From Maricaulis sp. (GTDB lineage: Bacteria; Pseudomonadota; Alphaproteobacteria; Caulobacterales; Maricaulaceae): 64,000 nt of DNA. Made by a program: the position numbers and the translations under genes. This document shows positions 15,879 through 33,513 of this stretch, piece after piece. Under the pieces are notes generated by a model that made no database searches, was not told where the DNA came from, and saw only the letters and a list, made by a program, of their open reading frames with translations. The DNA lies in the NCBI RefSeq assembly GCF_017642925.1, contig NZ_JAEPOL010000019.1, forward strand, positions 1 to 64,000, in the 5' to 3' direction. The first letter of the stretch is position 1. Each line of letters starts with the position of its first letter.

Positions 15879-16563
15879 GGTGAACCTCGAAATCTTGGAA
15901 TTGGGCGCCCAGCTCGGCCATCAGGGCCGTATCGTCGAGCGCGGTCTTTCCCGGCCAGGCCACGCGGTCCGGGGTTCTGCACTCTTGGAGCACAAAGCGC
16001 GACACCCCGATTTGATCCAGCGCAAATGCGATGGATCTGAGGGCGGCGGCATCGAGCCTTTCCGGCCAGACCGTGGTGCGGACTTCATAGGGCACGCCCG
16101 AGGCGGCGAGGATTTCCAGCGACCGCAATGCCTTGGCTCCGGCCGGCGCGACGCCGGTGACGCCGGCATAGTCGGCGAACGGGGCCTTCACGTCGAAGCC
16201 GACCCAGTCCAGCCGGGGCAGGAGGGCCTGCAGCAGGCCAGGCGCGGTGCCGGCCGTGTGCAGCGCCACGGCCAGTCCCATTGCACGAACGCGGTCGACC
16301 GCGTCCGCCAGCGCCGCCTGTGCCAGGGGTTCGCCGCCGGAGAAGACAACGCCGTCGATAAAGCCGTGCCGCGCCTCGATCGCCGACAGCACCGCCTCGA
16401 AATCCAGCATGCGTTCGGCCGTGGCCGGGATGAGATCCGGATTATGGCAATAGCCGCAGGCCAGCGGACAGCCCTGGCAGAAGACCACGGCAGCGAGGTG
16501 ACCGGGGAAGTCGACCGTGGAGAACGGTTCGACTCCCCCGACGCGGAGCGGTCGGTTCGCCAT
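15865..16563 (-). CDS. nrdG: anaerobic ribonucleotide reductase activating protein (radical SAM)
   Basis: 232 residues. The radical SAM cluster motif is CPLACGYC (CX3CX2C), preceded by another Cys (CQGC). VVFSGGEPL follows, the SAM-binding GGE motif. It would install the glycyl radical on NrdD by reductive cleavage of S-adenosylmethionine. It starts one base after the nrdD stop. The N-terminal VGGVEPFSTVDFPGHLAAVVFCQGCP matches the NrdG subtype that accompanies NrdD lacking the E. coli-type C-terminus. Confidence 0.93.
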   Translation of the reverse strand: MANRPLRVGGVEPFSTVDFPGHLAAVVFCQGCPLACGYCHNPDLIPATAERMLDFEAVLSAIEARHGFIDGVVFSGGEPLAQAALADAVDRVRAMGLAVALHTAGTAPGLLQALLPRLDWVGFDVKAPFADYAGVTGVAPAGAKALRSLEILAASGVPYEVRTTVWPERLDAAALRSIAFALDQIGVSRFVLQECRTPDRVAWPGKTALDDTALMAELGAQFQDFEVHRAQH

Positions 16564-18457: not shown

Positions 18458-18474
18458 CGGAAACTCCCTTCGCG

Positions 18475-18521
18475 AATCAATATTTGGTGTTTGCGATGGA
18501 ATTGAGCTCTATATGTAGTAT
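18475..18521 (-). promoter_or_regulatory. tandem NrdR boxes upstream of nrdD
   Basis: AATCAATATTTGGTGT (18475-18490) and GCTCTATATGTAGTAT (18506-18521) both fit the NrdR-box pattern acaCwAtATaTwGtgt at most core positions. They are spaced 31 bases start to start, the three-helical-turn spacing known for paired NrdR boxes. They lie 18-64 bases upstream of the nrdD ATG, where NrdR would repress when dATP is high. nrdR itself is not in this window. Confidence 0.78.
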
Positions 18522-18576
18522 TTCGTCGAACTGACAGATGGTCGCAGGGACGCCCTGTCGCACCCGGGGGCTGCCC

Positions 18577-18613
18577 AAAAAAAACGCCCCCGGCCAGAGG
18601 GAGGCCGGGGGCG
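18577..18613 (-). terminator. intrinsic terminator of norB
   Basis: CGCCCCCGGCC (18585-18595) and GGCCGGGGGCG (18603-18613) form an 11-bp perfect stem with a seven-base loop. On the minus strand it is directly followed by eight T (complement of 18577-18584). A textbook Rho-independent terminator separating norB from nrdD. Confidence 0.92.
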
Positions 18614-21036: not shown

Positions 21037-21050
21037 TTGCGCTCGCGCAA
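21037..21050 (-). promoter_or_regulatory. Crp/Fnr-family box upstream of norB
   Basis: TTGCGCTCGCGCAA is a perfect TTGCG-N4-CGCAA inverted repeat, 92 bases upstream of the norB ATG, just past the end of hemN. It matches the general TTG-N8-CAA pattern of the FNR/FixK/Dnr family. The same half-site occurs in several other promoters of this window. Confidence 0.75.
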
Positions 21051-21067
21051 TTTGCGGGAATCTCCCG

Positions 21068-22405
21068 TCAGACGGCGACGGCGTGGCGCGCGGTCGACGT
21101 CGGCAGATAGGCGTCGAACGCTGCTGCGACGCTGCGCACCAGCGGCCGGTAGTCGGGATTCATCGCCAGCCGGTTGCCCTGGCGCGAGAGGATGCCGGCG
21201 TGTTCGAACGCCGACAGGTCGGGCATGTCGAACGCGGTACCAGCTGCCGCCGCGATCGCATCGACATCCACATCGAGATGGCACATCAGGCGTTCGATGA
21301 TGGCCCGGCGCAGCCGGTCGTCCGCTGTCAGCGCGTAGCCGCGGGCGACAGGCAGATCGCCGGCCTCGACGCGTCTTTCCCACTCGTGATTGTTCGTTGT
21401 GTTCTGGGTATAGCCCTGCGGCATCCAGCTGATCGCCGAGGCGCCCATGCCGATGATCGCCGTGGCGGCATCAGTGGTGTAGCCCTGGAAATTGCGGTGC
21501 AGGTTTCCGGTCTCCAGCGCGATCGCCATCGGATCGGTGCGATAGGCGAAATGGTCCAGCCCGATCTGCACATGTCCGCCCCGCGTCAGGGTCTCGGCGA
21601 TGGCGTCGGCCTGGGCGAGACGCTCGGCCGCGCCCGGCAGCGCCTCGTCGCGGATCATCTTCTGGTGCGGTTTCATGTGCGGCACGTGCGCGTAACCGAA
21701 GACCGAGAATCGGTCCGGCGCAAACTCCAGCGCCGTTTCAGCGCTGGCCACACAGTTTTCGACCGTCTGAAACGGCAGGCCGTAGAGCAGGTCGAAATTG
21801 AGCCCCTCAACGCCGCCCGTCCGCAGCAGGTTCACACAGGCCTCGATGCAGTCCCGGTCCTGCACCCGGTTGACCGCCCGTTGCACCTCTTCGTCGAAGG
21901 TCTGCACACCGAGGCTGGCCCGGTTGACGCCGGTCTCGCCAAAGGCCGCGGCCATTTCCGGCGAGAAGATGCGGGGATCGACCTCGACCGCCACTTCCGC
22001 ATCGCCCAGCACATCGAAACGGTGACGCAGCCGGTCCATCAGCGCGGTAAAATACGGCGCGGGCAGGTAGGTCGGACTGCCCCCGCCCCAGTGGATATGG
22101 CTGACTTTCAGCCGCCCGGGGGTTCGGTTGGCGATCGTGTCGATCTCCTTGAGCAGAACCTCGGCATAGGCCTCGACCGGCGCCAGCCGCCGGGTCGCCT
22201 TGGTGTGACAACCGCAATACCAGCACATGGTCCGGCAGAAGGGGATGTGCAGGTAGAGCGAGACCGGCATGGCCGGGTCGAGCTCGCCCAGCCAGCGGGC
22301 AAAGCTGACGGCACCGATATCGGGCGTGAAGTGGGGCGCAGTCGGATAGCTGGTGTAGCGTGGTATCCGCTCGCCGGCGTATTTCAGGATCGTGTCGGTT
22401 CTCAT
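21068..22405 (-). CDS. hemN: oxygen-independent coproporphyrinogen III oxidase
   Basis: 445 residues from ATG 22405. The YTSYPTAPHF start, the radical SAM motif CRTMCWYCGC (CX3CX2C), HIHWGGGSPTYL and GLDHFA identify true HemN rather than HemW. It decarboxylates coproporphyrinogen III to protoporphyrinogen IX without oxygen, needed for heme under denitrifying conditions. It reads toward norB and is divergent from the Dnr/NnrR-like gene. A box at 22440 lies 35 bases upstream. Confidence 0.95.
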   Translation of the reverse strand: MRTDTILKYAGERIPRYTSYPTAPHFTPDIGAVSFARWLGELDPAMPVSLYLHIPFCRTMCWYCGCHTKATRRLAPVEAYAEVLLKEIDTIANRTPGRLKVSHIHWGGGSPTYLPAPYFTALMDRLRHRFDVLGDAEVAVEVDPRIFSPEMAAAFGETGVNRASLGVQTFDEEVQRAVNRVQDRDCIEACVNLLRTGGVEGLNFDLLYGLPFQTVENCVASAETALEFAPDRFSVFGYAHVPHMKPHQKMIRDEALPGAAERLAQADAIAETLTRGGHVQIGLDHFAYRTDPMAIALETGNLHRNFQGYTTDAATAIIGMGASAISWMPQGYTQNTTNNHEWERRVEAGDLPVARGYALTADDRLRRAIIERLMCHLDVDVDAIAAAAGTAFDMPDLSAFEHAGILSRQGNRLAMNPDYRPLVRSVAAAFDAYLPTSTARHAVAV

Positions 22406-22439
22406 GCGTGCTGGATAGCCGTTTGGCGCCGGGCGCGAT

Positions 22440-22453
22440 TTGAGGTAACGCAA
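22440..22453. promoter_or_regulatory. Crp/Fnr-family box between hemN and regulator gene
   Basis: TTGAGGTAACGCAA has a TTGAG left half and a CGCAA right half, the latter shared with the norB box. It is in the 72-base divergent region, 35 bases from hemN and 25 from the regulator ATG. It is placed to activate hemN and to block or autoregulate the regulator gene. Confidence 0.65.
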
Positions 22454-22477
22454 ACCGTCTGCACACGGGGCCGCATC

Positions 22478-23176
22478 ATGGACAAGACTGCCAGGATCGC
22501 CATTGTCGAACGCGCCAAACTGTTTGCCGGCCTGCCGCCGGAAACACTGTCGGAGGCGGCCGAGACCGCCCAGGTGCGTGTGGTCGACAAGGGCGATGTC
22601 GTCTTCCGGCAGGGGGACGAAGCCGGTCACCATTTCATTGTTGCCTGGGGGCGGTTGCGGCTGGATCAGACGACGCCCGACGGCAAGAATATCGTGCTGC
22701 GCTTCATGGGGCCGGGCGATCTCGTCGGCTCGGTCGCTGTTTGGCGCAAGGTGCCCTATCCGGCCACGCCGCTCGCGGTCGAGGAGACGCGGCTGCTGGT
22801 CTGGAGCGATGCGCGGATGATGGAGCTCATGCAGGCGCATCCGCCTCTCGCGATGAAGGCCATGAACATGATGGGCGGGCGGATCGAGGAATTGCAGGAA
22901 CGCCTGCAACAGGTCGCCACCCAGCAGGTCGAGCGGCGGATCGCGGCGACCATTCTCAAGATCGCCGGCCAGTCGGGCCGCAAGACCGAGGCCGGTGTGG
23001 AGATACCCTTCGCCCTGTCGCGCCAGGATCTCGCCGAGATGACGGGCACCACATTGCATACGGTCAGCCGGACCCTGTCCGGATGGATCGATGAAGGCAT
23101 TCTCGAAGGGCGCCGGTCCAGCCACTTGGTGATTTGCCGGCCGCACCGCCTGGTGGAGATTTCCGAGCAGGCCTGA
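22478..23176 (+). CDS. Crp/Fnr-family regulator, Dnr/NnrR-like
   Basis: 232 residues from ATG 22478. A cyclic-nucleotide-binding-like fold (about 12-125), a long dimer helix (125-155) and a winged HTH (about 175-225) are visible. There is no N-terminal Cys cluster, so it is not an iron-sulfur FNR. The recognition helix reads TTLHTVSRTLSGW: His194 occupies the place of the conserved Glu, with Ser197-Arg198 kept. That matches NnrR/Dnr-type NO-responsive regulators rather than FNR, and fits the TTGCG half-sites found here. Confidence 0.88.
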   Translation: MDKTARIAIVERAKLFAGLPPETLSEAAETAQVRVVDKGDVVFRQGDEAGHHFIVAWGRLRLDQTTPDGKNIVLRFMGPGDLVGSVAVWRKVPYPATPLAVEETRLLVWSDARMMELMQAHPPLAMKAMNMMGGRIEELQERLQQVATQQVERRIAATILKIAGQSGRKTEAGVEIPFALSRQDLAEMTGTTLHTVSRTLSGWIDEGILEGRRSSHLVICRPHRLVEISEQA

Positions 23177-23193
23177 GACAGATTTCCCGTGAT

Positions 23194-23207
23194 TTGCGGC
23201 GTGACAA
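23194..23207 (+). promoter_or_regulatory. Crp/Fnr-family box upstream of DUF1858 gene
   Basis: TTGCGGCGTGACAA has a perfect TTGCG left half and a weaker GACAA right half. It lies 54 bases upstream of the DUF1858 ATG, in an 84-base gap. Same TTG-N8-CAA spacing as the norB, nirK and hemN boxes. Confidence 0.6.
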
Positions 23208-23260
23208 ATCGCCTCCCGGCATGGCGGCCATACTGCGGCCGTGCCTGGAAGGAGATTGCC

Positions 23261-23485
23261 ATGACAGATCGGATCGAAACCATGGTCGTCGGCGAGCTGA
23301 TGACCCAGTGGCCGGACGCGGTTCCCGTCTTCATCCGTCACCGCATGGCCTGTCCGGGATGTGTCATGGCGCCCTTCATGACCGTCCGCGAGGCGGCCCA
23401 CGAATACGGACTCGATCCCGAGGCCCTTGCCGGAGAGCTGGCGCAGGCGATCGGCGCCGGTGAGAGGCCGCATGCTGCCAGCTAA
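23261..23485 (+). CDS. DUF1858 domain protein (putative redox disulfide protein)
   Basis: 74 residues from ATG 23261, preceded by AAGGAGATT. Nearly the whole protein is the DUF1858 domain: VGELMTQWPDAVPVFIRHRMACPGCVMAPFMTVREAAHEYGLD. The CPGC pair is the candidate redox or metal site. These small proteins are often found beside anaerobic or NO-detoxification genes and have been associated with hybrid-cluster-protein partners. It lies between the Dnr/NnrR-like regulator and fixL, with a matching box upstream. The exact role is unknown. Confidence 0.8.
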   Translation: MTDRIETMVVGELMTQWPDAVPVFIRHRMACPGCVMAPFMTVREAAHEYGLDPEALAGELAQAIGAGERPHAAS

Positions 23486-23607
23486 TATGGTATTATTTAC
23501 CTGAATTTACGAGAGAATATGGCCATTCTCGCGGCGATTGACTTGCAAGTGCGGACGCGTTGGCGCAGTCTGGCGTGCCGGACACGCTCGGCAGGATTTC
23601 TCGCGCC

Positions 23608-24714
23608 ATGGCAGAAAAGACCTTTGCGGAAGGCCAGCTTGAAGCGCTGATCCACACCGCGGTCGACGGGATTCTCTGTATCGACCGTGGGGGACATGTC
23701 AGCCTCTACAATCCTGCATGTGAGCGCATTTTCGGCTGGACGGCGGACGAGGTGCTTGGCCGGAATGTCTCGATGCTGATGCCACCGCGCTATGCCGAGC
23801 GGCATGACGGCTTCATCACCAATTATCTCACCACCGGAACGCCGCGAATTATCGGCATCGGCCGCGAGGTCGAAGGCTTGCGCAAGGATGGCAGCGAGTT
23901 CCCGATGGACCTCTCTGTCGGGGAGTTCGAGACCGGCGGGGAAAGCTGTTTTGTCGGCATTGTCCGTGATCTCTCCCAGCGTGTTGCAGCCGAACGGCGT
24001 CTGCGCGATCTGCAGGCCCAGCTGACGCATATGGGTCGGGTCGGAGCTGTGGCGGAGATGGGCTCGGCACTCGCGCATGAGCTCAACCAGCCATTGACGG
24101 CCATCTCGCTTTTCCTGACAGCATCGGAACGGTCGCTCGAGGCCGATCCCGCGAAGGCGCGGGAATTGTTCGCCCGGGCCCAGGACGAGGCCTTGCGCGC
24201 CGGCGAGATCGTGCGCCGCATCCGCCAGATGGTCGAACCCGGCGATGATGAACGCCGGGAGGTGCGGCTTGCCGAGATCGTCGTCGATGCCGCGGAACTG
24301 TGCAGTGTCGTTGATGATGGCGGCCGGGCGCGGGTCGATCTGTCCGGTGTTGACGAGACGCTGGAAGTTTTCGCCGATCCGACCCAGATCCGCCAGGTCC
24401 TGGTCAATCTGGTCAAGAATGCGATCGACGCGACGTACGGTCAGGATGCACCTCTCATCCGGGTCCGCGTGTCGACGGGTGATGACGGCATGGCCGCGAT
24501 CGAGGTCGAGGATAACGGGCCTGGCATCGCCCACGATCTCGCCCCCAACCTGTTTTCCCCCTTTGTGACAAGCAAGAAGGACGGGCTGGGGATCGGCCTG
24601 TCCATCTGCCGGACGATCGCTGAATCGCATGGCGGCAGCCTCGAACTCGTCGATCCGGCGCGCCAGGACCGTCTGTCCGGCGCCTGCTTCCGTCTCAACC
24701 TTCCCATGGAGTAG
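23608..24714 (+). CDS. fixL: oxygen-sensing PAS-heme histidine kinase FixL-like
   Basis: 368 residues from ATG 23608; a TTG at 23560 would add 16. There is no transmembrane segment. The heme-PAS domain (about 10-125) contains ERHDGFITNYLTTGTPRIIGIGR. In this, His66 and Arg86 keep the exact 20-residue spacing of the heme-ligand His and oxygen-contacting Arg of Bradyrhizobium FixL (H200, R220). The kinase core follows with ALAHELNQPL (phospho-His157), NLVKNAIDA, DNGPGI and GLGIGLSIC. It should autophosphorylate when oxygen leaves the heme and pass phosphate to FixJ, encoded 4 bases downstream. Confidence 0.9.
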   Translation: MAEKTFAEGQLEALIHTAVDGILCIDRGGHVSLYNPACERIFGWTADEVLGRNVSMLMPPRYAERHDGFITNYLTTGTPRIIGIGREVEGLRKDGSEFPMDLSVGEFETGGESCFVGIVRDLSQRVAAERRLRDLQAQLTHMGRVGAVAEMGSALAHELNQPLTAISLFLTASERSLEADPAKARELFARAQDEALRAGEIVRRIRQMVEPGDDERREVRLAEIVVDAAELCSVVDDGGRARVDLSGVDETLEVFADPTQIRQVLVNLVKNAIDATYGQDAPLIRVRVSTGDDGMAAIEVEDNGPGIAHDLAPNLFSPFVTSKKDGLGIGLSICRTIAESHGGSLELVDPARQDRLSGACFRLNLPME

Positions 24715-24718
24715 CCGT

Positions 24719-25297
24719 ATGCCCGCAGGCGAAATCTCGATCGCCATCACCGATGATGACGATGCCGTCCGCGAAGGACTGGCGGCGGTGCTCGATGGTC
24801 CCGGCCGCCGCCTGACGCTGCATGCGCACGGTCTGTCCTTTATCGAGCAGGTCGGCGATGCGCCGCCCGACATCGCTTTCCTCGATCTGAAAATGCCCCA
24901 GCTCTCCGGTCTCGACGTACTGCGCCGGCTGGCCCCGGTCTCCTTTCCGGTGATCATGATCAGCGCGCACGGCGATATCGCAACGGCGGTCGAGGCGATC
25001 CGGCTCGGAGCGCACGATTTTGTCGAGAAGCCCTTCAAGCCCGCTTCGATCGAGGCGGCGATGGCGCACGCGCTGGACGCCGGACGTCGGCCGTCCGGAG
25101 ATGCGGACGCTCTGATGTCGGCCCTGACGGATCGCGAGCGCGACATTGCAGATGCGCTCAATCGGGGGCTGACAAACAAGGAAGTCGCGCGCGAGCTGGA
25201 TATCAGTCCGCGCACGGTCGAGATCCATCGCGCACGTGTCTTCGCCAAGCTCAGTGTGCGCAATGTGGCCGAGCTCGTGCGTCTGATGTCGCGCTGA
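24719..25297 (+). CDS. fixJ: response regulator FixJ-like
   Basis: 192 residues from ATG 24719. The receiver domain (1-120) has the acidic pocket TDDDDAV, phospho-acceptor Asp56 (FLDLKMP), MISAHGD and EKPFKP. A LuxR/NarL-type HTH (about 130-190) carries LTDRERDIADALNRGLTNKEVARELDISPRTVEIHRARV. Partner of the adjacent FixL. Phospho-FixJ would activate fixK-like genes; the nearest is at 25826. Confidence 0.9.
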   Translation: MPAGEISIAITDDDDAVREGLAAVLDGPGRRLTLHAHGLSFIEQVGDAPPDIAFLDLKMPQLSGLDVLRRLAPVSFPVIMISAHGDIATAVEAIRLGAHDFVEKPFKPASIEAAMAHALDAGRRPSGDADALMSALTDRERDIADALNRGLTNKEVARELDISPRTVEIHRARVFAKLSVRNVAELVRLMSR

Positions 25298-25307
25298 CCG
25301 CGAGCGA

Positions 25308-25321
25308 TTGATTTCGCGCAA
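25308..25321 (+). promoter_or_regulatory. Crp/Fnr-family box upstream of receiver gene
   Basis: TTGATTTCGCGCAA combines the classic FNR left half TTGAT with the CGCAA right half. It lies 39 bases upstream of the receiver gene ATG, right after fixJ. It places that gene under FixK/Dnr-type control, the same logic as fixT in rhizobia and Caulobacter. Confidence 0.65.
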
Positions 25322-25359
25322 AGCACGCGAAGTGTCTTCGCGATAGAGCCTGTCGGGTC

Positions 25360-25734
25360 ATGACCCCGCTGGCCATCATACTTGTCGAAGCCGATCCGTC
25401 AGTGCGCGAGGCCTTTCAGGCATTCGCGCAGGCGCTGGGCTTTGTGCTCACGGTTTTCGAGACCGTTGACGCGGCCATTGCCGGCGCGAGACCGCTCGGA
25501 ACCGACATCCTTATTGCCGATCTTTCCGCCGATGCGGATATCCGCCGTCTGTTGGCCTGGTCGGGCGCGCTGGGCACCCGTCCGGCAACCATCCTTCTGA
25601 CACACCAATCCCCGGCAATGCTTGAGCGCCGGCTCGCTGAAGCGCGGGACATCAAGGTTCTGCGCAAGCCGGTCGCGGCGGCCGAAATCCTGGACGCCCT
25701 GAAGGCCGTCACGGACACTCGGGGCCGGGCATAG
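25360..25734 (+). CDS. single-domain response regulator (FixT-like candidate)
   Basis: 124 residues forming only a receiver domain. The acidic pocket (Glu10, Asp12), candidate phospho-acceptor Asp54 (IADLSAD), Thr81 and Lys103 (LRKPV) are all present, so it could be phosphorylated. There is no output domain. The gene lies between fixJ and a fixK-like gene behind an FNR/FixK-type box. That is the setting of FixT, a stand-alone receiver that inhibits FixL as negative feedback. It has no cysteine, unlike the cluster-bearing Caulobacter FixT as I recall it. Function is inferred from context. Confidence 0.75.
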   Translation: MTPLAIILVEADPSVREAFQAFAQALGFVLTVFETVDAAIAGARPLGTDILIADLSADADIRRLLAWSGALGTRPATILLTHQSPAMLERRLAEARDIKVLRKPVAAAEILDALKAVTDTRGRA

Positions 25735-25825
25735 GGAAAATCCCGTACGCGGTGATGCGAATTTTTTCGCGGCGGCCGGTCTGACAAACAAGGGCTCACG
25801 AACGCACCACGCCGGAGCCCGAACC

Positions 25826-26392
25826 ATGATCCAGGAAACCCGCCGCACACTGGCCAGCCACACGCCGGTCTATTTCGCCGGTGACCGCGCCACCGACCTT
25901 GTCCGGGTCGAGCGCGGTGTCGTGATGGTGTTCAACCTGTTCGAGGATGGCCGCCGCCAGATCGTCGACTTCGTCACGGCGGGCGAACTCCTCCATTTCC
26001 AGTTCGACGGTGAGCTCGATCACTATGCCGAGGCGATCACCGAGGTCGAACTGGTTTCGGCGCCGAGTGATGCCGCCCTGTCGGACCCGGCCTGGGCCGA
26101 ATACGTTTTCCAGCAGATGCGCGGACGGCTCGACCGCGATCGCCGTCATGTCACCCTGCTGGCCCAGAAGTCGGCAGCGGAACGCCTGGCGGAATTCCTG
26201 ATCATCGTGTCGGACCGGCTGTCCACCCCGATCGGCGATATCGAACTGCCGATGACCCGGCAGGAAATCGCCGACTATACCGGCCTGACCATCGAGACGG
26301 TTTCGCGCCTGTTTTCCCGCTGGATGCGCGAACGCCGCCTGGTTGTCACCGGCAAGCGAACCTACCGCATCGAAGGCGCTCTGGCCGCCTGA
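25826..26392 (+). CDS. FixK/FNR-like transcription regulator
   Basis: 188 residues, short for the family: the N-terminal sensor beta-roll is trimmed and has no cysteines. The HTH ELPMTRQEIADYTGLTIETVSRLFSRW has the canonical E-x-x-S-R recognition residues (Glu157, Ser160, Arg161), which read TTGAT/TTGAC half-sites. This and its place after fixL-fixJ argue for a FixK that needs no ligand. It is directly upstream of nirK. No clear TTG-N8-CAA box is seen in front, which agrees with control by FixJ rather than FixK. Confidence 0.85.
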   Translation: MIQETRRTLASHTPVYFAGDRATDLVRVERGVVMVFNLFEDGRRQIVDFVTAGELLHFQFDGELDHYAEAITEVELVSAPSDAALSDPAWAEYVFQQMRGRLDRDRRHVTLLAQKSAAERLAEFLIIVSDRLSTPIGDIELPMTRQEIADYTGLTIETVSRLFSRWMRERRLVVTGKRTYRIEGALAA

Positions 26393-26430
26393 CCTTTCTC
26401 CCCAGTCCGGGTGCGGAATTCCCGTTTCTT

Positions 26431-26444
26431 TTGTTCAAGCGCAA
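26431..26444 (+). promoter_or_regulatory. Crp/Fnr-family box upstream of nirK
   Basis: TTGTTCAAGCGCAA, with the CGCAA right half shared with the norB box, is 66 bases upstream of the nirK ATG. The position suits activation of the nirK-pseudoazurin-TonB operon. Confidence 0.65.
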
Positions 26445-26509
26445 GTCGCGAACCGCCCGGACCTTCTAAACCCCGATCATCACAACGCTGCTCAAACGGA
26501 GTGCAAGAC

Positions 26510-27559
26510 ATGAAAACCCGCAGCCTGAAAAACATCCTTGTCGCCGGCACCGCGACCGCACTGGTGGCCGCTGCGGCGGCTTTCATCCTCCAGCCGCTGG
26601 CCTACGGCCAGGACGATGCGGCTCCGGTCGCCAATATCGTCCGCGACCCGCACGAAGTGCCGGCGCCGATCACGGCCCGCGAGCCGCAGCGCCACCTGGT
26701 GGAACTGGAAACGGTGGAACTGGAAGGCCAGCTGGCCGACGGCTCGACCTACACCTACTGGACCTTCAACCATCAGGTCCCCGGACCGATGATCCGCGTC
26801 CGCGTCGGTGACACGGTGGAAGTCCGCCTGACCAATCACGAAGACAGCCTGATGCCGCACAATGTGGACTTCCACGCGGTAACGGGCCCCGGCGGCGGCG
26901 CTCCCGCGACGCTGGCCGGTCCGGGCGAGACCCGCTCTTTCGTCTTCCAGGCGCTTAACCCCGGCGTCTACGTCTATCACTGCGCGACGCCGATGGTCGC
27001 CAGCCACATTGCCAACGGCATGTACGGCCTGATCGTCGTCGAGCCGGAAGACGGCCTGCCGGAAGTCGATCGCGAATTCTACGTCATGCAGGGCGAGATC
27101 TACACGGAAGAGGAGTTCGGTACGCCGGGCCACCTGACCGAAAGCATCGACAAGCTGCTCGACGAAGAGCCGGAATACTACGTCTTCAACGGCGCGGCCG
27201 GCGCCCTGCGGGACAATCCGCTGCAGGCCCGGGTCGGCGAGACCGTCCGCATCTTCTTCGGTGTCGGCGGTCCCAACAAGACGTCGTCCTTCCACGTGAT
27301 CGGCGAGATCTTTGACGAGATCTATCCCTTCGGTTCCTTCACCTCGGAGACCATCAGCGACGTACAGACCGTGACGGTCGCACCGGGTGGTGCCGTCGCC
27401 GTCGACTTCGCACTGGAAGTGCCGGGTAATTACATCCTGGTCGACCACGCCCTGTCGCGCGTCGAACGCGGCCTGGCCGGCATCCTCCACGTCGAAGGAC
27501 CGGAAAACCCGGAAATCTTCGAGCCGCTCAGCGGCGTCTCTGAAGACTCGGGCCACTAG
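26510..27559 (+). CDS. nirK: copper-containing nitrite reductase NirK
   Basis: 349 residues with a signal or anchor segment (about 8-33). Two cupredoxin domains follow. Type-1 copper ligands are His117, Cys158, His166 and Met171 (YVYHCATPMVASHIANGM). Type-2 ligands are His122 and His157, with a third His in ILVDHAL, and the catalytic Asp is Asp120 in MPHNVDFH. SFHVIGEIFD supplies the second active-site His. It reduces nitrite to NO in the periplasm. First gene of nirK-pseudoazurin-TonB receptor, behind an FNR-type box. Confidence 0.97.
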   Translation: MKTRSLKNILVAGTATALVAAAAAFILQPLAYGQDDAAPVANIVRDPHEVPAPITAREPQRHLVELETVELEGQLADGSTYTYWTFNHQVPGPMIRVRVGDTVEVRLTNHEDSLMPHNVDFHAVTGPGGGAPATLAGPGETRSFVFQALNPGVYVYHCATPMVASHIANGMYGLIVVEPEDGLPEVDREFYVMQGEIYTEEEFGTPGHLTESIDKLLDEEPEYYVFNGAAGALRDNPLQARVGETVRIFFGVGGPNKTSSFHVIGEIFDEIYPFGSFTSETISDVQTVTVAPGGAVAVDFALEVPGNYILVDHALSRVERGLAGILHVEGPENPEIFEPLSGVSEDSGH

Positions 27560-27572
27560 GCCCGATCTCGAA

Positions 27573-27611
27573 GAAGCGGGGCGGGCCTCCCTCCCCATGC
27601 CGCCCCGCTTC
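27573..27611 (+). repeat. intercistronic hairpin nirK/pseudoazurin
   Basis: GAAGCGGGGCGG (27573-27584) and CCGCCCCGCTTC (27600-27611) form a perfect 12-bp stem without a following T-run. It is probably an attenuating or mRNA-stabilising element that lets nirK be expressed above the downstream genes. Confidence 0.6.
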
Positions 27612-27646
27612 ATCACCTTGTCCCAAACCAAGAAGGCCTGACCCCA

Positions 27647-28099
27647 ATGAAACGCGCTTTCCTCCCCCTCGCCGCCGCCATCTTCGCCGCCGCCCTGCCG
27701 GCCGGTACCGCGCTGGCGGAAGACCATGAAATCCTGATGCTCAACCGCGGTGCCGACGGCCAGTCGATGGTTTTCGAACCGGCCTATCTGGAAGTCGCCC
27801 CGGGCGACACGGTGACCTTCGTCGCCACGGACCGGGCCCACAATGCCGAGACCATCCCCGGCATGGTGCCCGAAGGCGGTGAAACCTTCCGCGGCCGCAT
27901 GAACGAAGACGTCTCCGTCACCTTCACGGCCGAAGGTGTCTATGGCGTGAAATGCCTGCCGCACTACGGTCTGGGCATGGTGGCCCTGATCAAGGTCGGC
28001 GAAGGCGATGCCCCGAACCTGGACGCGGCTGCCGGCGTGCGCCAGCCGGGCCGTGCCCGCCAGCGCATGGAAGCCCTCTTCCAGCAGATCGACGACTGA
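27647..28099 (+). CDS. pseudoazurin (blue copper electron carrier)
   Basis: 150 residues with a signal peptide ending at ALA (about residue 24). The type-1 copper site is complete: His65 (AHNAET), Cys103, His106 and Met111 (CLPHYGLGM). MLNRGADGQSMVFEPAYLEVAPGDTVTF is the pseudoazurin N-terminal signature. It would carry electrons to NirK, encoded just upstream. The C-terminal Arg/Ala-rich tail (LDAAAGVRQPGRARQRMEAL) is usual for the family. Confidence 0.93.
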   Translation: MKRAFLPLAAAIFAAALPAGTALAEDHEILMLNRGADGQSMVFEPAYLEVAPGDTVTFVATDRAHNAETIPGMVPEGGETFRGRMNEDVSVTFTAEGVYGVKCLPHYGLGMVALIKVGEGDAPNLDAAAGVRQPGRARQRMEALFQQIDD

Positions 28100-28192
28100 T
28101 CTTCAGCGGGCGGCGGCGCGTCCTCTCTCCCTCTCTTGCGCTGCCGTCCGCACCCTCCCCCTCCCTGACCCCTTCACCGCGTGGAGACCCCC

Positions 28193-30325
28193 ATGTCACG
28201 CAAATCGCTCTATCTCGCCAGCGCGTCCCTCGCAGCGGCGATCGCCCTGGCAAGTGCCGCCAGCGCGTCCGAACACGTCAATCAACGCCCCGAAGAACCG
28301 GCGGCGCCCGCTGTCCAGGACGTCATCGTGGTCACCGGTTTCCGGATCACCACGAACGTGACCATCGAAGAGCATGTTTCCCCGGAACAGGCACCCTTGC
28401 TGGGACCTGATGCCGCCGGTCTCGTGGCGCGCCTGCCCGGCGCGGCGCTTGTGGACAATGGTTCGATCTCCGGCCAGGTGCAGTATCGCGGCCTGTTCGG
28501 CTCGCGTGCGCCGGTCGCGATCGACGGCGCCGCGGTGATGTCCGGCGGTCCCAACCTGATGGACCCGCCGCTTCACTATGCGCCGATGCCGCTGGTCGAG
28601 CGCATCGAGGTCGATCGTGGTGTGGCCGCGGTCAGCCGCGGGCCCGGCATGGGCGGCGGCATGAATGTCATCCTCAAGGGTGTCGACTTCGCGTCCGGTC
28701 ATGAGATCGAGTATGAAGCCGAGACCATGGCCTCCGTGCGCAGTGTCGACGGATCCTACGCCGTGGGCGGCGTGGCGGGCGGCGCCAGCGAAGGCCGGCG
28801 CTTCCAGCTTCTGTTCTCGCGCGAAGAGGGCGGCGATATCGCCTTCTCCGGCGGCGATATTCCCAACAGCCATCACGAGCGCACGGTCTATGGCCTGGGT
28901 GGCGGGCTGGCGAGCGGCGATCATGCCGTGTCGCTGGACTATCGCCGGCTCGACACGGGGCCGACGGGCAATGCGGCGCTGGCGATGGATATCGAGCATG
29001 TCGAAACCGATGTTGCGCGCCTGGCCTATGAAGGCATGGCCGGCGACATCACCATCGACGCCGCCATCGGCTGGACCGATGTCAGCCATGGCATGGACAA
29101 TTTCTCCCAGCGTCCCAATCCCGATCCGATGCGGCACCGCTATACGGTGGCAACGGCCAATACGGTTTCTGCCGAGCTGTCCCTCGGATTTGAGGCTCTG
29201 GGCGGCGATCTGGAACTGGGGATCGACCGGGAAGAGGCCGAACACGATGTCCTGATCTCCAATCCGAACAATGCCGCCTTCTTCCTCGGCTCGCTGCCGG
29301 ACATCTCCATCGAACGCACCGGCGCCTACGCCCAGTGGGAAGGTGTGATCCTGTCGCTGGAAAGCGAGCTGGGTATCCGCGCCGACTGGCATTCCGACGA
29401 TGCCGGCCTTGCCCGTACGGGTGGTGCGGTTCCGGCGGGTGCGCAAATGCTGGCCGGCATGTTCAACATGGCCGATCGCGCGCATGACGACACGACGGTC
29501 GATGCGGTGGCGCGCTTCTGGCGGCACACGGACGGCCCGCTGACCTGGCGTCTCACCCTGGCCCACAAGACGCGGATGCCGTCCTATGTCGAGCGCTATG
29601 CCTGGCTGCCCACGGGCGCCAGCGGCGGCCTGGCCGACGGCAATACCTATGTCGGTGACCTGCATCTCGAGCCCGAGACGGCCGACAGTATCGAGGCCGG
29701 TTTCGACTGGCGCGGCGAGAGCGGTTATCTCCGCCCGACCGTCTTCTACCGCCGGGTCGACGATTTCATCCAGGGCGTTGCCTATGACGCCACGCCGGGC
29801 GTGATCGATACCCCGGTGGAAATGGTCTCGATGATGAATGGCGATGCCACGCCGCTGCGCTTTGCCAATGTCGACGCGGAGTTCTTCGGTGTGGATGCCG
29901 ATTTCGGCTGGCAGCTGTCCCGCGACTGGCGCATCGACGGTGTGGCCTCCCTGGTCAGGGGCGACCGCCGTGATATCGACGAGCCGCTCTACCGGATGGC
30001 GCCGGCGCGTCTCCTGCTCGACCTGACCTATGAGCAGGCGGACTGGAGCGTGTCGCTGGAGAGCCAGTTCGTGGCCGAGCAGGATCGCGTTTCAGCCACC
30101 AATTCGGAGCAGGCGACCGACGGCTATGCGGTCTTCGGCGCCAATCTCGACTGGTATGCCCGGGACAATGTCCTCGTCACGCTGGGTATCGAGAACCTGT
30201 TCGACGAGACCTATGAGAGACACCTGTCCGGCTATAATCGCGTCGCCGGTGGTGACGTGGCCGTGGGTGACCGCCTGCCAGGTCAGGGGCGCGGCGCCTA
30301 CGCCCGGATCAGCGCGGCCTTCTGA
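28193..30325 (+). CDS. TonB-dependent receptor B, probable copper receptor (OprC/NosA-like)
   Basis: 710 residues from ATG 28193 (GGAG at good spacing; a GTG at 28181 is also possible). Signal peptide to about residue 26. The plug contains VQYRGLFGSRAPVAIDGAAVMSGGPNLMDPPLHYA and ends VDRGVAAVSRGPGMGGGMN. The PNxMDPP element and the barrel segment MVSMMNGDATPLRFANVDAEFFGVDADF resemble OprC/NosA copper receptors. The Cys that precedes PNxM in OprC is Gly here. Its place behind two copper enzymes suggests copper import for NirK and pseudoazurin. Confidence 0.82.
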   Translation: MSRKSLYLASASLAAAIALASAASASEHVNQRPEEPAAPAVQDVIVVTGFRITTNVTIEEHVSPEQAPLLGPDAAGLVARLPGAALVDNGSISGQVQYRGLFGSRAPVAIDGAAVMSGGPNLMDPPLHYAPMPLVERIEVDRGVAAVSRGPGMGGGMNVILKGVDFASGHEIEYEAETMASVRSVDGSYAVGGVAGGASEGRRFQLLFSREEGGDIAFSGGDIPNSHHERTVYGLGGGLASGDHAVSLDYRRLDTGPTGNAALAMDIEHVETDVARLAYEGMAGDITIDAAIGWTDVSHGMDNFSQRPNPDPMRHRYTVATANTVSAELSLGFEALGGDLELGIDREEAEHDVLISNPNNAAFFLGSLPDISIERTGAYAQWEGVILSLESELGIRADWHSDDAGLARTGGAVPAGAQMLAGMFNMADRAHDDTTVDAVARFWRHTDGPLTWRLTLAHKTRMPSYVERYAWLPTGASGGLADGNTYVGDLHLEPETADSIEAGFDWRGESGYLRPTVFYRRVDDFIQGVAYDATPGVIDTPVEMVSMMNGDATPLRFANVDAEFFGVDADFGWQLSRDWRIDGVASLVRGDRRDIDEPLYRMAPARLLLDLTYEQADWSVSLESQFVAEQDRVSATNSEQATDGYAVFGANLDWYARDNVLVTLGIENLFDETYERHLSGYNRVAGGDVAVGDRLPGQGRGAYARISAAF

Positions 30326-30348
30326 CCGCGCAGTCCGGGACACTGGAA

Positions 30349-30385
30349 GGGCCGCGATGCGGGACATCGCGGCCCTTTTTCTTTT
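30349..30385 (+). terminator. intrinsic terminator of nirK operon
   Basis: GGGCCGCGATG (30349-30359) and CATCGCGGCCC (30365-30375) form an 11-bp perfect stem followed by TTTTTCTTTT. A strong Rho-independent terminator ending nirK-pseudoazurin-receptor B. Confidence 0.93.
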
Positions 30386-30395
30386 GCGGCGAACC

Positions 30396-32159
30396 TCAAT
30401 CGAGCGTGGACAGCGCCTGCCGTATCGTGGCGGCGAATTGCGGCACCATCGCGTCGCGTATGGCGTCGCTCGCCCAGTAGGGGTTCATGAAGACACAGCG
30501 GATCAGTACCAGCCGGGCCTCGTCCGCTTCGCCGTCGAACCTTGCAATGTGGCGGGCGATCTGGCTGCGGTGATTGACGCTGCCGAGTGTCGTCGTGGTG
30601 ACAACAAAGTCACCGGCTTCGCACAAGGCCTCGTAGAGAGCCCGGGTCCGGCGATTGGCCGCGCTCAGTGCTTCACCGGGTGCGCCGAGCGAGAAGCAGA
30701 CGATATTGGCATCGACCGGTTCAAGCACATGCACGCCGTCGAGATCGCCCAGCACTTCGCTGCGGAAAACATAGCCCGACCGGATCATGCCGGCCAGCAG
30801 GGCGCCGAAACGGTCGGGCGCAAAGCCGATCGTGCGGCCGGTCAGCCAGACCGCTGTCGCTCCGGCTGCCGAGCGCGACCCTTCCAGTGTCGATGTCCAC
30901 GGATCGTCGGAGATCTGCGGCCGCTCCAGATAGGGCGCGTCGAAAACCGAGACCGTGTAGTGGTCGGCATCGCGGGCCAGGAAGGCGCCGCAGGCATAGG
31001 GCACAAAGCCCAGCTTGTGAGGGTCGATGGTCACCGAATGCGCGCGTGAAACCGCTTTCAGCGCGGCAATTGTCGCGGGCTGGAGGACGGTTTCATGCGG
31101 ACCGTCCGGAATGGTGCACAGGAAACCGCCATAGGCGGCATCGACATGGTGCCAGATCCGCCAGCCGCGCTCGGTCCGCCACTGATCCAGCCGGTCGGCG
31201 ATGCGGTCGATCGGATCGATCTCGCCGGTCTCGGTGGTGCCCGCGACCGAAACGACAGCCAGCACCGGCCGGGCCGCAGCTTCCGCCTGGTTCACCCGGC
31301 GTTCCAGATCGGCGAGGTCGAAGCGCCCCTCATCGTCCAGGCCGATTTCCCAGAACGCCTCTTCGCCCAGCCCGAACACATTGGCGGCCTTGCGCCAGGA
31401 GAAATGCTTGCTGGCGGGAACCAGCACGACGGGGCCGAGATAGTCGTGCCCGGCGGCCCTGGAGAGGCGGCGGAACACGTCGGCCGGATTACCCGCGACC
31501 GCACTGCAATTGCGCAGCGCATCGGGGTCCGGTGCGTGCTGTTTCACGAGGCCGGCATAGCGCGTCCAGCCCATGTGGGCGGCCTCGAATACGTTGAGGG
31601 GGGCGCCGGTGGTCTCCGCGATCCACAGGGCCAGAGACAGCCAGTGATCGAGCCGGTAGCGGGCCCGCCAGACCCCTTCGAAATTCGCTACGGTGCCGCC
31701 GGAGGTGAAATGCCCCCGGGCCGCGGCCGGGTCATAGCCGATCATCTCCGCCAGCATGCCGATGGCTTCGGCTTCGATGACGGTGCCGACGCGCGAGACT
31801 TCCTTGGATGTGTTGTTCGGATTGTGCAGCAGGGCGGTCAGCTGGCCGAACAGGGCCGGCAGGGTGAGCTCCGACACCATGTGACCGGCATAGCGCGGCG
31901 AGTAGGTCGCCGTTTCCCGCCGCATCAGTGTCTTGAGCGTATCGAGCTCCTGGCTCAACCGTTCGCGTTCGGCAAGAAAGTCGGCGGACAGGCGGTCGTC
32001 CCGGCTGATCGCGGCAGGATCGCCGGTGCGGTCGCTTTTGCGCCAGTCGAACCAGTCATCGAGAATGGCCTGGAATTCGGCCCGGACCCAGGCCTCATTC
32101 TCCGACTTGGGGCCCGGGAAGTAGGCCTTTGCGCCCACGGCGTCGTCGCGTGAAGTCAT
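30396..32159 (-). CDS. PLP-dependent decarboxylase (group II)
   Basis: 587 residues from ATG 32159 with AAGGA upstream. It is a fold-type-I pyridoxal-phosphate enzyme with HVDAAYGGF (Asp that binds the PLP nitrogen) and TIDPHKLGFVPYACGAFL (Schiff-base Lys), plus the N-terminal SPRYAGHMVSELTLPALFGQL of the glutamate/tyrosine/DOPA decarboxylase superfamily. It is longer than glutamate decarboxylase GadB, and the substrate cannot be assigned. The divergent promoter region shared with the porin gene holds two FNR-type boxes, suggesting low-oxygen expression. Confidence 0.88.
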   Translation of the reverse strand: MTSRDDAVGAKAYFPGPKSENEAWVRAEFQAILDDWFDWRKSDRTGDPAAISRDDRLSADFLAERERLSQELDTLKTLMRRETATYSPRYAGHMVSELTLPALFGQLTALLHNPNNTSKEVSRVGTVIEAEAIGMLAEMIGYDPAAARGHFTSGGTVANFEGVWRARYRLDHWLSLALWIAETTGAPLNVFEAAHMGWTRYAGLVKQHAPDPDALRNCSAVAGNPADVFRRLSRAAGHDYLGPVVLVPASKHFSWRKAANVFGLGEEAFWEIGLDDEGRFDLADLERRVNQAEAAARPVLAVVSVAGTTETGEIDPIDRIADRLDQWRTERGWRIWHHVDAAYGGFLCTIPDGPHETVLQPATIAALKAVSRAHSVTIDPHKLGFVPYACGAFLARDADHYTVSVFDAPYLERPQISDDPWTSTLEGSRSAAGATAVWLTGRTIGFAPDRFGALLAGMIRSGYVFRSEVLGDLDGVHVLEPVDANIVCFSLGAPGEALSAANRRTRALYEALCEAGDFVVTTTTLGSVNHRSQIARHIARFDGEADEARLVLIRCVFMNPYWASDAIRDAMVPQFAATIRQALSTLD

Positions 32160-32220
32160 GGATTGTCCTTTTTCCGGCGGTGCAGGCTGCGCTTTTTCGC
32201 ACGGCCGGACATCCGGCCTT

Positions 32221-32234
32221 TTGACGCAGGTCAA
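32221..32234. promoter_or_regulatory. FNR/FixK-type box, decarboxylase-porin region
   Basis: TTGACGCAGGTCAA is a perfect TTGAC-N4-GTCAA inverted repeat, close to the FNR/FixK consensus. It is 62 bases upstream of the decarboxylase and 95 upstream of the porin gene. It fits the E-x-x-S-R FixK-like regulator better than the His-type one. Confidence 0.72.
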
Positions 32235-32256
32235 ACCAGGGCTTTGCGCCGCTCGC

Positions 32257-32270
32257 TTGCGCTGGCGCAA
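32257..32270. promoter_or_regulatory. Dnr-type box upstream of porin
   Basis: TTGCGCTGGCGCAA is a perfect TTGCG-N4-CGCAA inverted repeat with the same half-sites as the norB box. It is 59 bases upstream of the porin ATG and 23 bases from the preceding box. Confidence 0.72.
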
Positions 32271-32328: not shown

Positions 32329-33513
32329 ATGAAAGCCCTGCTTCTTGCCACCGCCGCGCTCGCCGGTCTGGCGATGGCGCCGGCATCCGCCCTCGCAGAC
32401 GACGGACTGGCCGACAACCTCATTCTCAACATGCGCCTGCGCTATGAAAACGTCGACCAGGACGGTCTGGCCGAGACCGCTTCTGCTTTGACCCTGCGCA
32501 CCCGTTTCGGTTTCGAGACACCGCGCCGGAACGGGTTTTCCGTTCTGCTGGAAGGAGAAAACACGACGCATCTGATCGACGACTTCGCCGATACCATCAC
32601 CCTGAATCCCGGTTATCCGGTCGTCGCCGATCCGGAAGTCACCGAGCTGAACCGGGCGCAGATTTCCTGGCGCGGCGAAACCGGTGCCGGCGTCACGCTG
32701 GGGCGGCAATGGTTCGTGCTGGGCGATCAGCGTTTTGCGGGGCCGGTCGGCTTCCGTCAGAACAGCCAGTCTGTCGATGCCGTACGGATCACCAGCGGCG
32801 ACACCTGGCCGGTGACGCTGGACTACACCTATATCGATCGCGTGCATCGCATCTTCGGCGACGACCACCCGCTGGGCGAGCTGGACAGCGCCTCTCACGC
32901 CGGCGAAGCGCGCGTGGATACACCGCTGGGCGAGGTCGCGGCCTTCGCGCTTCTGCTCGATTTCGACAACGCACCGGCCCTGTCCTCGCAGACGCTGGGG
33001 CTGCGCCTGACCGGCACACACGAGGCGATCGCCTACCGGTTCGAACTGGCCAATCAGTCCGACTATGGTGCCAGTACCGGAGATTTCGATCTGACCTATC
33101 TGCGGGCCGAGGCGGACTACCGGTCCGGAAACCTCTCCGTCGGTGGCGGGATCGAGGTGCTGGGCGGCGACGGGGTGCAGGGCTTCCAGACGCCGCTCGC
33201 CACGCTGCACAAATTCCAGGGTGCGGCGGATGTCTTCCTGTCGACCCCGGCAGACGGGTTGCGCGATCTTTACGTGCGCGGCAGCTGGCGCTTCCCGGAT
33301 GCCACGCCGGGACCGGTCAGCCTGGGCCTTGCCTGGCATGACTTCGCGTCCGATGACGGCGATATCGATTATGGCTCCGAAATCGACTTCGTGGCCGGTC
33401 TGGCACTGACCGGGCGCTTGTCGGCAGAAGCGAAGGCCGCAGTCTTCGACGGCGATGCGGGCGGGCCGGCAGACCGGACCAAGATCTGGTTGAGCCTGGT
33501 CTTTGACTATTGA
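32329..33513 (+). CDS. outer-membrane beta-barrel porin (alginate-export/OprB-like fold)
   Basis: 394 residues from ATG 32329 (GGGAG ribosome-binding site). A signal peptide ends at ALA (about 23). The rest is a beta-barrel: alternating strands, RLRYENVDQDGL and LTLRTRFGFETP near the start, and a terminal aromatic in VFDY. RQWFVLGDQRFAGPVGFRQNSQSVDAV matches the alginate-export family segment also seen in some anion or nitrite-related porins. The cargo is unknown. Two FNR-type boxes precede it, so it may serve anaerobic solute uptake, perhaps nitrite or nitrate; this is inference. Confidence 0.82.
   Translation: MKALLLATAALAGLAMAPASALADDGLADNLILNMRLRYENVDQDGLAETASALTLRTRFGFETPRRNGFSVLLEGENTTHLIDDFADTITLNPGYPVVADPEVTELNRAQISWRGETGAGVTLGRQWFVLGDQRFAGPVGFRQNSQSVDAVRITSGDTWPVTLDYTYIDRVHRIFGDDHPLGELDSASHAGEARVDTPLGEVAAFALLLDFDNAPALSSQTLGLRLTGTHEAIAYRFELANQSDYGASTGDFDLTYLRAEADYRSGNLSVGGGIEVLGGDGVQGFQTPLATLHKFQGAADVFLSTPADGLRDLYVRGSWRFPDATPGPVSLGLAWHDFASDDGDIDYGSEIDFVAGLALTGRLSAEAKAAVFDGDAGGPADRTKIWLSLVFDY

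Follow-up and report, generated by a model that had tools for sequence, protein, structure and literature searches.

A predicted NnrR-type regulon marked by TTG-N8-CAA boxes in a nitrite and nitric oxide reduction island of Maricaulis

Do the TTG-N8-CAA boxes that lie between positions 21037 and 32270 of a 64,000-nucleotide stretch of Maricaulis sp. DNA (contig NZ_JAEPOL010000019.1 of assembly GCF_017642925.1, positions 1 to 64,000; here termed the window) define a regulon, and which regulator reads them? The boxes stand in front of genes for the reduction of nitrite and nitric oxide (NO). Comparative evidence makes it very probable that they are activator sites of the Crp/Fnr family that define an island-local regulon of NnrR type, with inputs from an NnrR-type regulator encoded at 22478 and a FixK-type regulator encoded at 25826. 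A low-oxygen/NO regulon had been proposed in a preliminary description of the window, and it is well supported by the clustering of the boxes, their rank under a matrix built from relatives, and comparative footprinting.

The minus strand of the island carries, in order of position, nnrS, nrdG, nrdD, norB and hemN, and the plus strand carries nnrR, a DUF1858 gene, fixL-like, fixJ-like, receiver and fixK-like genes, nirK, pseudoazurin and a TonB receptor (Pfam and NCBIfam matches); a pyridoxal phosphate (PLP)-dependent decarboxylase on the minus strand is divergent from a porin on the plus strand. All seven boxes described earlier were recovered by pattern search of the window. They have no assigned strand and lie before norB (21037–21050, TTGCGC-TC-GCGCAA), between hemN and nnrR (22440–22453), before DUF1858 (23194–23207), between the fixJ-like and receiver genes (25308–25321), before nirK (26431–26444), and in the decarboxylase/porin gap (32221–32234 and 32257–32270). 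TTGCG or CGCAA half-sites occur in six of the seven, the exception being 32221 (TTGAC/GTCAA), and three boxes are perfect inverted repeats, with arms, the fixed TTG/CAA included, of 6 bp (21037), 6 bp (32257) and 5 bp (32221); the preliminary description was correct on both points. Its placement of the boxes before linked genes also holds, as all seven are intergenic when gene starts are set by hand from open reading frames and Pfam/NCBIfam matches. A crude codon-based gene finder had extended hemN too far, so that its frame took in 22440; the Pfam-supported nnrR, which starts at 22478, and a hemN start at 22405 overrule this call.

The pattern alone carries little weight. The window contains 11 TTG-N8-CAA matches, compared with a mean of 6.29 (standard deviation 2.45) in shuffled sequences, 6 of 100 of which reached 11 or more, a count that by itself is not striking. 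Genome-wide (3.61 Mb, 35 contigs) there are 207 places, versus 235 for a reversed control pattern, so there is no genome-wide excess. Candidate boxes with CG half-sites (the CG class) occupy 54 distinct places, 46 of them outside the window (59 rows, five palindromes being counted twice, versus 47 rows for a control pattern), and their number elsewhere is about what the control gives. These figures speak for chance, in which case a short pattern would have yielded seven sites as a selected coincidence. Local density speaks against it: 11.2 kb of the island should hold 0.64 matches and holds eight, including one of poor symmetry at 27618 (Poisson 4e-7, or 5e-6 for seven, both before correction for ~320 windows), and should hold 0.17 of the CG class and holds six (Poisson 3e-8).

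A symmetric 20-bp matrix was built from 25 sites, hand-picked among those before orthologous genes in five relatives (G017, G030, G032, G687 and G503), with none from the studied genome; five further sites were excluded (9088 and 1194 of G017, 7674 of G030, 7942 and 14672 of G687). Under this matrix the seven boxes and a site at 16012 outscore all other positions of the window, with scores from 25.1 to 13.1 and the next position at 12.0; a score of at least 12 was seen eight times, compared with 1.2 expected per 64 kb under a first-order Markov null. A whole-genome model search, in which scores were computed for 150 of the 2256 candidates from a first look, gave at least four places at E ≤ 10 (E 0.47–2.7, weak), and among those scored three lie in the window (21035, 32257 and 16010) and one at C21:100506.

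Placement of the boxes is conserved. Footprints were counted in stretches from 14 genomes with an nnrR homologue, the studied one included, as TTG-N8-CAA within 250 bp of an inferred start, and only homologues that passed fixed limits of identity and coverage entered; the 33% nirK of G547, for example, fell outside the counts, as did norB of G030 and the decarboxylase of G058, both pieces at the edge of a contig or stretch. A box precedes nirK in 11 of 11 genomes, DUF1858 in 7 of 7, norB in 9 of 10 and the decarboxylase in 8 of 9, with lower counts for pseudoazurin (7/12, the match in the studied genome being the poor site 27618), nnrR (8/14), hemN (4/9) and porin (4/10). Among the internal controls, no TTG-N8-CAA was found within 250 bp of nrdD (0/5), fixJ (0/6) or fixK (0/6). 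Box offsets are stable in the studied genome, G017, G030, G032 and G687, at −79/−80 for nirK and −64 to −68 for DUF1858. The earlier judgement that the placement is hard to explain by chance is upheld by local density, matrix rank and conserved placement, and chance was rejected as very improbable, being largely refuted by the footprinting in relatives. In Marinicauda pacifica (G687, L177 14139–14620) two DUF1858 genes lie in tandem, and a TTG-N8-CAA closely precedes each of them.

Two regulators of the Crp/Fnr family are encoded in the island. The first (22478–23176, plus strand) has the Crp/Fnr architecture (PF00027, PF13545) without the FNR cysteine cluster, its one cysteine lying near the C-terminus, and its recognition helix reads TTLHTVSR (H-SR). 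The helix LHT(V/A)SR is present in 13 of 13 orthologues (37–81% identity) and absent from five weaker homologues (26–30% identity), in a comparison to which 20 loci were submitted, one giving no row. None of the 11 NCBIfam matches is a family named NnrR. In a by-eye alignment to FNR/CRP, the H of this helix was placed at CRP position 181, where reference NnrR proteins presumably also have H, and the commonest base replacing A in the boxes is C. According to Rodionov and colleagues (PMC1274295), CRP position 181 and base A6 of the half-site covary, and the joint loss of Glu-181 and A6 in the 22478 regulator and its candidate boxes would fit that rule. The CG half-site, which the preliminary description presented as a peculiarity, is not one: it equals the alphaproteobacterial NnrR motif published as ctTTGcgnnnncgCAAag, TTGcg-N4-cgCAA (PMC1274295). 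Boxes of this motif stand before nirK and norB; the one near nnrS is ambiguous, lying within nrdG.

The second regulator (25826–26392, plus strand; PF13545) has the helix TIETVSR (E-SR) and is accompanied by a fixJ-like gene (24719–25297). It fails the NCBIfam FixK equivalog cut-off (NF050806, 85.6 versus 300 bits) and is therefore named FixK-like only. The FixK of contig 1 (C1) has the helix IETVSR, also E-SR. The boxes fall into two classes that the preliminary description did not separate, CG for the NnrR type and AC/GT for the FixK type. The AC/GT box at 32221 recurs letter for letter as a 14-mer at C1:267875, ~7 kb from fixK, and TTGAC-N4-GTCAA and near variants cluster, among the matches listed, at C1:267–293 kb around fixJ and fixK. 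This stretch of contig 1 (L084, L085), a second, low-oxygen-looking locus, contains fixJ, fixK, HSP20, CBS, PhaC and cold-shock/S30AE protein genes with several TTGAC-N4-GTCAA boxes, as well as a PCMT fused to an erythromycin-esterase-like domain. It resembles the window in its boxes near fixJ–fixK and in the shared 14-mer, and differs in its tested neighbours, none of which is a denitrification gene: they are of HSP20, CBS, PCMT and PhaC type.

In the proposed mechanism, the H-SR regulator most likely recognizes, in the presence of NO, boxes of the TTGCG-N4-CGCAA class and would activate its own gene as well as norB, hemN, DUF1858, nirK, the decarboxylase, the porin and, probably, nnrS. The adjacent FixL/FixJ-like pair would feed the E-SR regulator at 25826, which would add a low-oxygen input through half-sites of AC/AT type, namely the box at 32221 and, in 25308, the AT half-site. 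With CG and AC/GT boxes in one gap, the decarboxylase/porin promoter seems to be under dual control. Box positions, clustering, conservation before orthologues and the association of the H-SR helix with CG boxes are computed results; binding, the direction of regulation, and NO and oxygen as the signals are what we infer here. One sigma-70-like promoter was found, versus 2.0 in shuffles, so no core promoters are assignable.

The closest described counterpart is the NnrR regulon of Bradyrhizobium diazoefficiens. Table 1 of PMC6710368, for which the search pattern was the FixK2 box, lists genes with CG-half-site TTG-N8-CAA boxes and lower expression in an nnrR mutant: nnrR (TTGCGCTATCGCAA), a DUF1858 gene (TTGCGCTCCAACAA), hemN2 (TTGCGCGAGCGCAA) and nirK (TTGTTGCAGCGCAA), with porin-family genes in the same table. 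The Maricaulis gene set is largely the same, so the regulon is of a known type, not new. B. diazoefficiens also has a FixLJ–FixK2–NnrR cascade (PMC6710368). It differs in having norCBQD, in contrast to the single-subunit NO reductase of Maricaulis, which carries its fixLJ–fixK-like set directly inside the island. Predicted alphaproteobacterial NnrR regulons are alike in motif and in including nir, nor, nnrS and hemN, and the outer-membrane copper receptor gene nosA of the Brucella NnrR regulon parallels the Maricaulis TonB receptor (PMC1274295). Three genes had been singled out as unexpected members. Membership of the decarboxylase is supported by its conservation in relatives, that of the porin more weakly (box in 4/10); DUF1858 is not unexpected because it is listed as nnrR-dependent in Bradyrhizobium, and hemN was likewise already reported. 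The word ‘decarboxylase’ is absent from the main text of PMC6710368, as are decarboxylase, porin and DUF1858 from that of PMC1274295.

Several observations weigh against an NnrR-type reading. Within 250 bp, nnrR lacks a box in 6 of 14 genomes, hemN in 5 of 9 and the porin in 6 of 10. The box at 25308 (matrix score 13.1, the weakest of the seven) is weak; G017 has a TTG-N8-CAA at the same place. One decarboxylase (G507, outside the 58-locus set described below), ~5 kb from an H-SR nnrR and beside nrdD and nrdG, has an AT-type TTGATTTGCATCAA. According to PMC6710368, no NnrR-binding consensus had been defined in B. diazoefficiens, the only known direct NnrR target there is norCBQD, and TTGA/C-N6-T/GCAA is tolerated by FixK2, a direct activator of nnrR and nnrS in vitro. 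Given this tolerance of A or C, the CG boxes could also be read by FixK in Maricaulis: a FixK-type protein (25826 or that of contig 1) would be their main reader, low oxygen the direct signal, and NnrR would act on norB only, a scheme put forward for Bradyrhizobium. Several mixed boxes, with TTGAT...GCAA at 25308 and 16012, are in line with this account, which is nevertheless rather unlikely. CG boxes are kept in G030, G032, G687 and G503, whose nnrR genes have no clear fixL, fixJ or fixK beside them in the stretches examined (G030 and G032 do have other Crp/Fnr homologues elsewhere), and none stands before the 43 decarboxylases found away from nirK/nor.

Returning to the NnrR-type regulon, its probable eighth site and the gene behind it, nnrS, were missed by the preliminary description. 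The nnrS gene (14652–15842, minus strand; PF05940 NnrS, E = 2.6e-113, and tblastn with a relative's NnrS) has an uncertain start codon, up to 15884. The box at 16012–16025 scores higher under the matrix than any other window position (25.1) and lies inside nrdG, ~130–170 bp before nnrS. A TTG-N8-CAA occurs at the same nrdG place in G017, G030 and G032, four genomes with the studied one. It overlaps the conserved NrdG peptide IAFAL-x-Q, so its conservation may stem from coding, and the nnrS box is ambiguous for this reason. As a side observation, nnrS, a classic NnrR target, ends an nrdD–nrdG–nnrS string, with the top-scoring window box just before it. The other members of that string are nrdG (15865–16563, minus strand; PF04055, PF13353), encoding an NrdG-like radical S-adenosylmethionine activase after nrdD, and nrdD itself (16565–18457, minus strand; PF13597, E = 2e-181), encoding anaerobic ribonucleotide reductase. 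An operon norB–nrdD–nrdG–nnrS driven by the box at 21037 was judged unlikely, in view of the strong terminator-like hairpin between norB and nrdD and the absence of a box before nrdD in five genomes; the hairpin (18585–18613, minus strand, 3′ of norB; 11 G–C pairs then a T run, by consensus match only) would separate the two genes. The gap before nrdD (18458–18585) has an A+T-rich look and no TTG-N8-CAA, and another anaerobic control of nrdD is likely.

Whether both genes of the decarboxylase/porin gap belong to the regulon is a separate question, as two boxes lie in one divergent gap and could serve only one gene. Two boxes are also present in this gap in G017, G030 and G032. The porin is unboxed within 250 bp in the six genomes noted above, five of which carry it behind nirK instead. 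The decarboxylase is boxed even without a divergent porin, in G042 and G671, and a merely shared gap is accordingly rather improbable. The name ‘porin’ is fair as a model-based assignment: the protein (32329–33513, plus strand) has no Pfam or NCBIfam match, and its AlphaFold model, from nine sequences, has a predicted local distance difference test score (pLDDT) of 73.9 and a predicted template modelling score (pTM) of 0.71, with 18 predicted strands after a low-confidence N-terminal helix. Foldseek ranked MOMP, AlgE and Occ/OprD barrels at the top (best E 1.3e-10, template modelling score 0.5–0.6, root-mean-square deviation 7–9 Å). Homologues occur in 138 of 299 genomes (E ≤ 1e-30), so presence alone says little; in the nnrR genomes examined they are often near nirK or the decarboxylase, the best listed match in G687 being on another contig. 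G032 has two equal-scoring decarboxylase and porin copies at the ends of one contig (C1:22843 and C1:3419508), probably because the ends of a circular assembly overlap.

The new point is the decarboxylase, a conserved regulon member tied to the island in several related genera. It is a group II PLP-dependent amino-acid decarboxylase (30396–32159, minus strand; PF00282, 112.5 bits, cut-off 27), with D379-P-H-K382 invariant in eight aligned sequences. The nearest solved relatives by sequence are 5hsi (E 4e-55, over most of the length) and 6ebn. It shares the DPHK lysine motif and the HVDAAYGG motif with the Lactobacillus brevis tyrosine decarboxylase 5hsi (PMC4904194), but lies far under the TIGR03811 cut-off (207.3 versus 905.3 bits), and identity as a tyrosine decarboxylase was rejected on score. 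In an order-level sample of 299 genomes, an orthologue occurs in 20 (E ≤ 1e-100) and an nnrR homologue in 15 (E ≤ 1e-30), two of the latter (G056 and G683) missing the H-SR helix. Both genes are present in nine genomes (Fisher 1.5e-8, relatedness not corrected) and are at most 12 kb apart in all nine; the decarboxylase occurs without nnrR in 11 of 20, and nnrR without the decarboxylase in 6 of 15. A class-level sample had the decarboxylase in 6 of 385 genomes at E ≤ 1e-100, the studied genome included.

A pattern-based scan of 84,980 species genomes gave 64 decarboxylase loci, 58 of which entered a box test after two without upstream DNA and four of <40% identity were dropped. Beside nirK/nor (n = 15, >60% identity), a CG-class box lies within 200 bp in ten, an FNR-class box in none, and neither in five. 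Away from nirK/nor (n = 43), the CG class is found in none and TTGA(C/T)-N4-(A/G)TCAA, the FNR/FixK class, in eight; nirK/nor linkage may be missed at some loci with partial flanks. Expected numbers per promoter are 0.019 for the CG class and 0.009 for the FNR class. In a tree of 57 rows, all ten CG rows fall in one 17-row clade (support 100/98) with seven classless rows, composed of Maricaulis/Marinicauda and Caulobacteraceae, mostly Brevundimonas; seven FNR rows lie outside. The contrast between classes follows the gene tree and is confounded by descent, and a single event or two, as opposed to many, may account for it. Our reading is that of a low-oxygen gene brought under NnrR once or twice.

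Neighbours within 7 kb were surveyed at 60 of the 64 loci, those of <40% identity being excluded, with names taken from one representative each and many close Brevundimonas and Robiginitomaculum loci that are not independent. NnrS was found at 20 loci (median distance 571 bp), HemN at 18, NirK, NO reductase and DUF454 at 12 each, class II ribonucleotide reductase at 11, UbiT at 9, UbiU and UbiV at 8 each, UbiM and a chorismate-mutase-like gene at 6 each, and NrdD at 5; Robiginitomaculum loci have other neighbour genes. At Brevundimonas-type loci (L193, L220, L190, L186 and others) the decarboxylase is followed by ubiT, ubiU, ubiV and the chorismate-mutase-like gene, whose best NCBIfam match there is isochorismate lyase, below cut-off. 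A PLP decarboxylase needs an α-amino acid. For that reason of chemistry, the idea, prompted by PMC12423496, that the enzyme takes the place of UbiD in making ubiquinone was rejected. A tentative and rather doubtful proposal is that the enzyme belongs to an alphaproteobacterial kit for oxygen-independent biosynthesis that is induced once oxygen is exhausted, supplying an amine (or β-amino acid) made oxygen-dependently in air, by analogy with HemN, NrdD/NrdJ and UbiTUV, which stand in for oxygen-requiring reactions in the synthesis of haem, deoxynucleotides and ubiquinone; control would ancestrally have been through an FNR/FixK box and would have moved under NnrR in one lineage (Maricaulis/Marinicauda with Brevundimonas) on joining the nirK–nor island. 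No open-licence PubMed Central paper linking such a decarboxylase to NnrR or denitrification was found; the sole mentions of ‘decarboxylase’ in PMC12883736, PMC4070659 and PMC4417242 are HemE, pyruvate decarboxylase (a reference) and carboxymuconolactone decarboxylase, respectively.

The remaining genes of the island were assigned by profile matches. On the minus strand, norB (18663–20930; PF22085, PF00115) encodes a single-subunit NO reductase of norB/norZ type, and hemN (21068–22405; TIGR00538, 420.9 bits, cut-off 324.95) an oxygen-independent coproporphyrinogen III oxidase. On the plus strand, the DUF1858/TIGR03980 redox-disulfide protein (23261–23485; TIGR03980, 67 bits, cut-off 44.95) is followed by a FixL-like PAS histidine kinase (23608–24714; PF00989, PF00512, PF02518), the FixJ-like response regulator (24719–25297; PF00072, PF00196; best NCBIfam match FixJ, 167.5 bits, below the cut-off of 255) and a stand-alone receiver domain (25360–25734; PF00072, 24.3 bits, below the cut-off of 30.2). 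Beyond the FixK-like gene lie nirK (26510–27559; TIGR02376, 332 bits, cut-off 296.3), encoding copper nitrite reductase, a pseudoazurin-like cupredoxin gene (27647–28099; PF00127), and a gene for a TonB-dependent receptor that is copper-receptor-like (28193–30325; PF00593; TIGR01778, 156 bits, below the cut-off of 472).

The predicted regulon would extend the known NnrR scheme to Maricaulis-type marine bacteria and offers clean, conserved boxes for experiments. Gene position and promoter box recurrently link its decarboxylase with NO handling and with the oxygen-independent synthesis of quinone, haem and deoxynucleotides, links that suggest a missing step of anaerobic metabolism.

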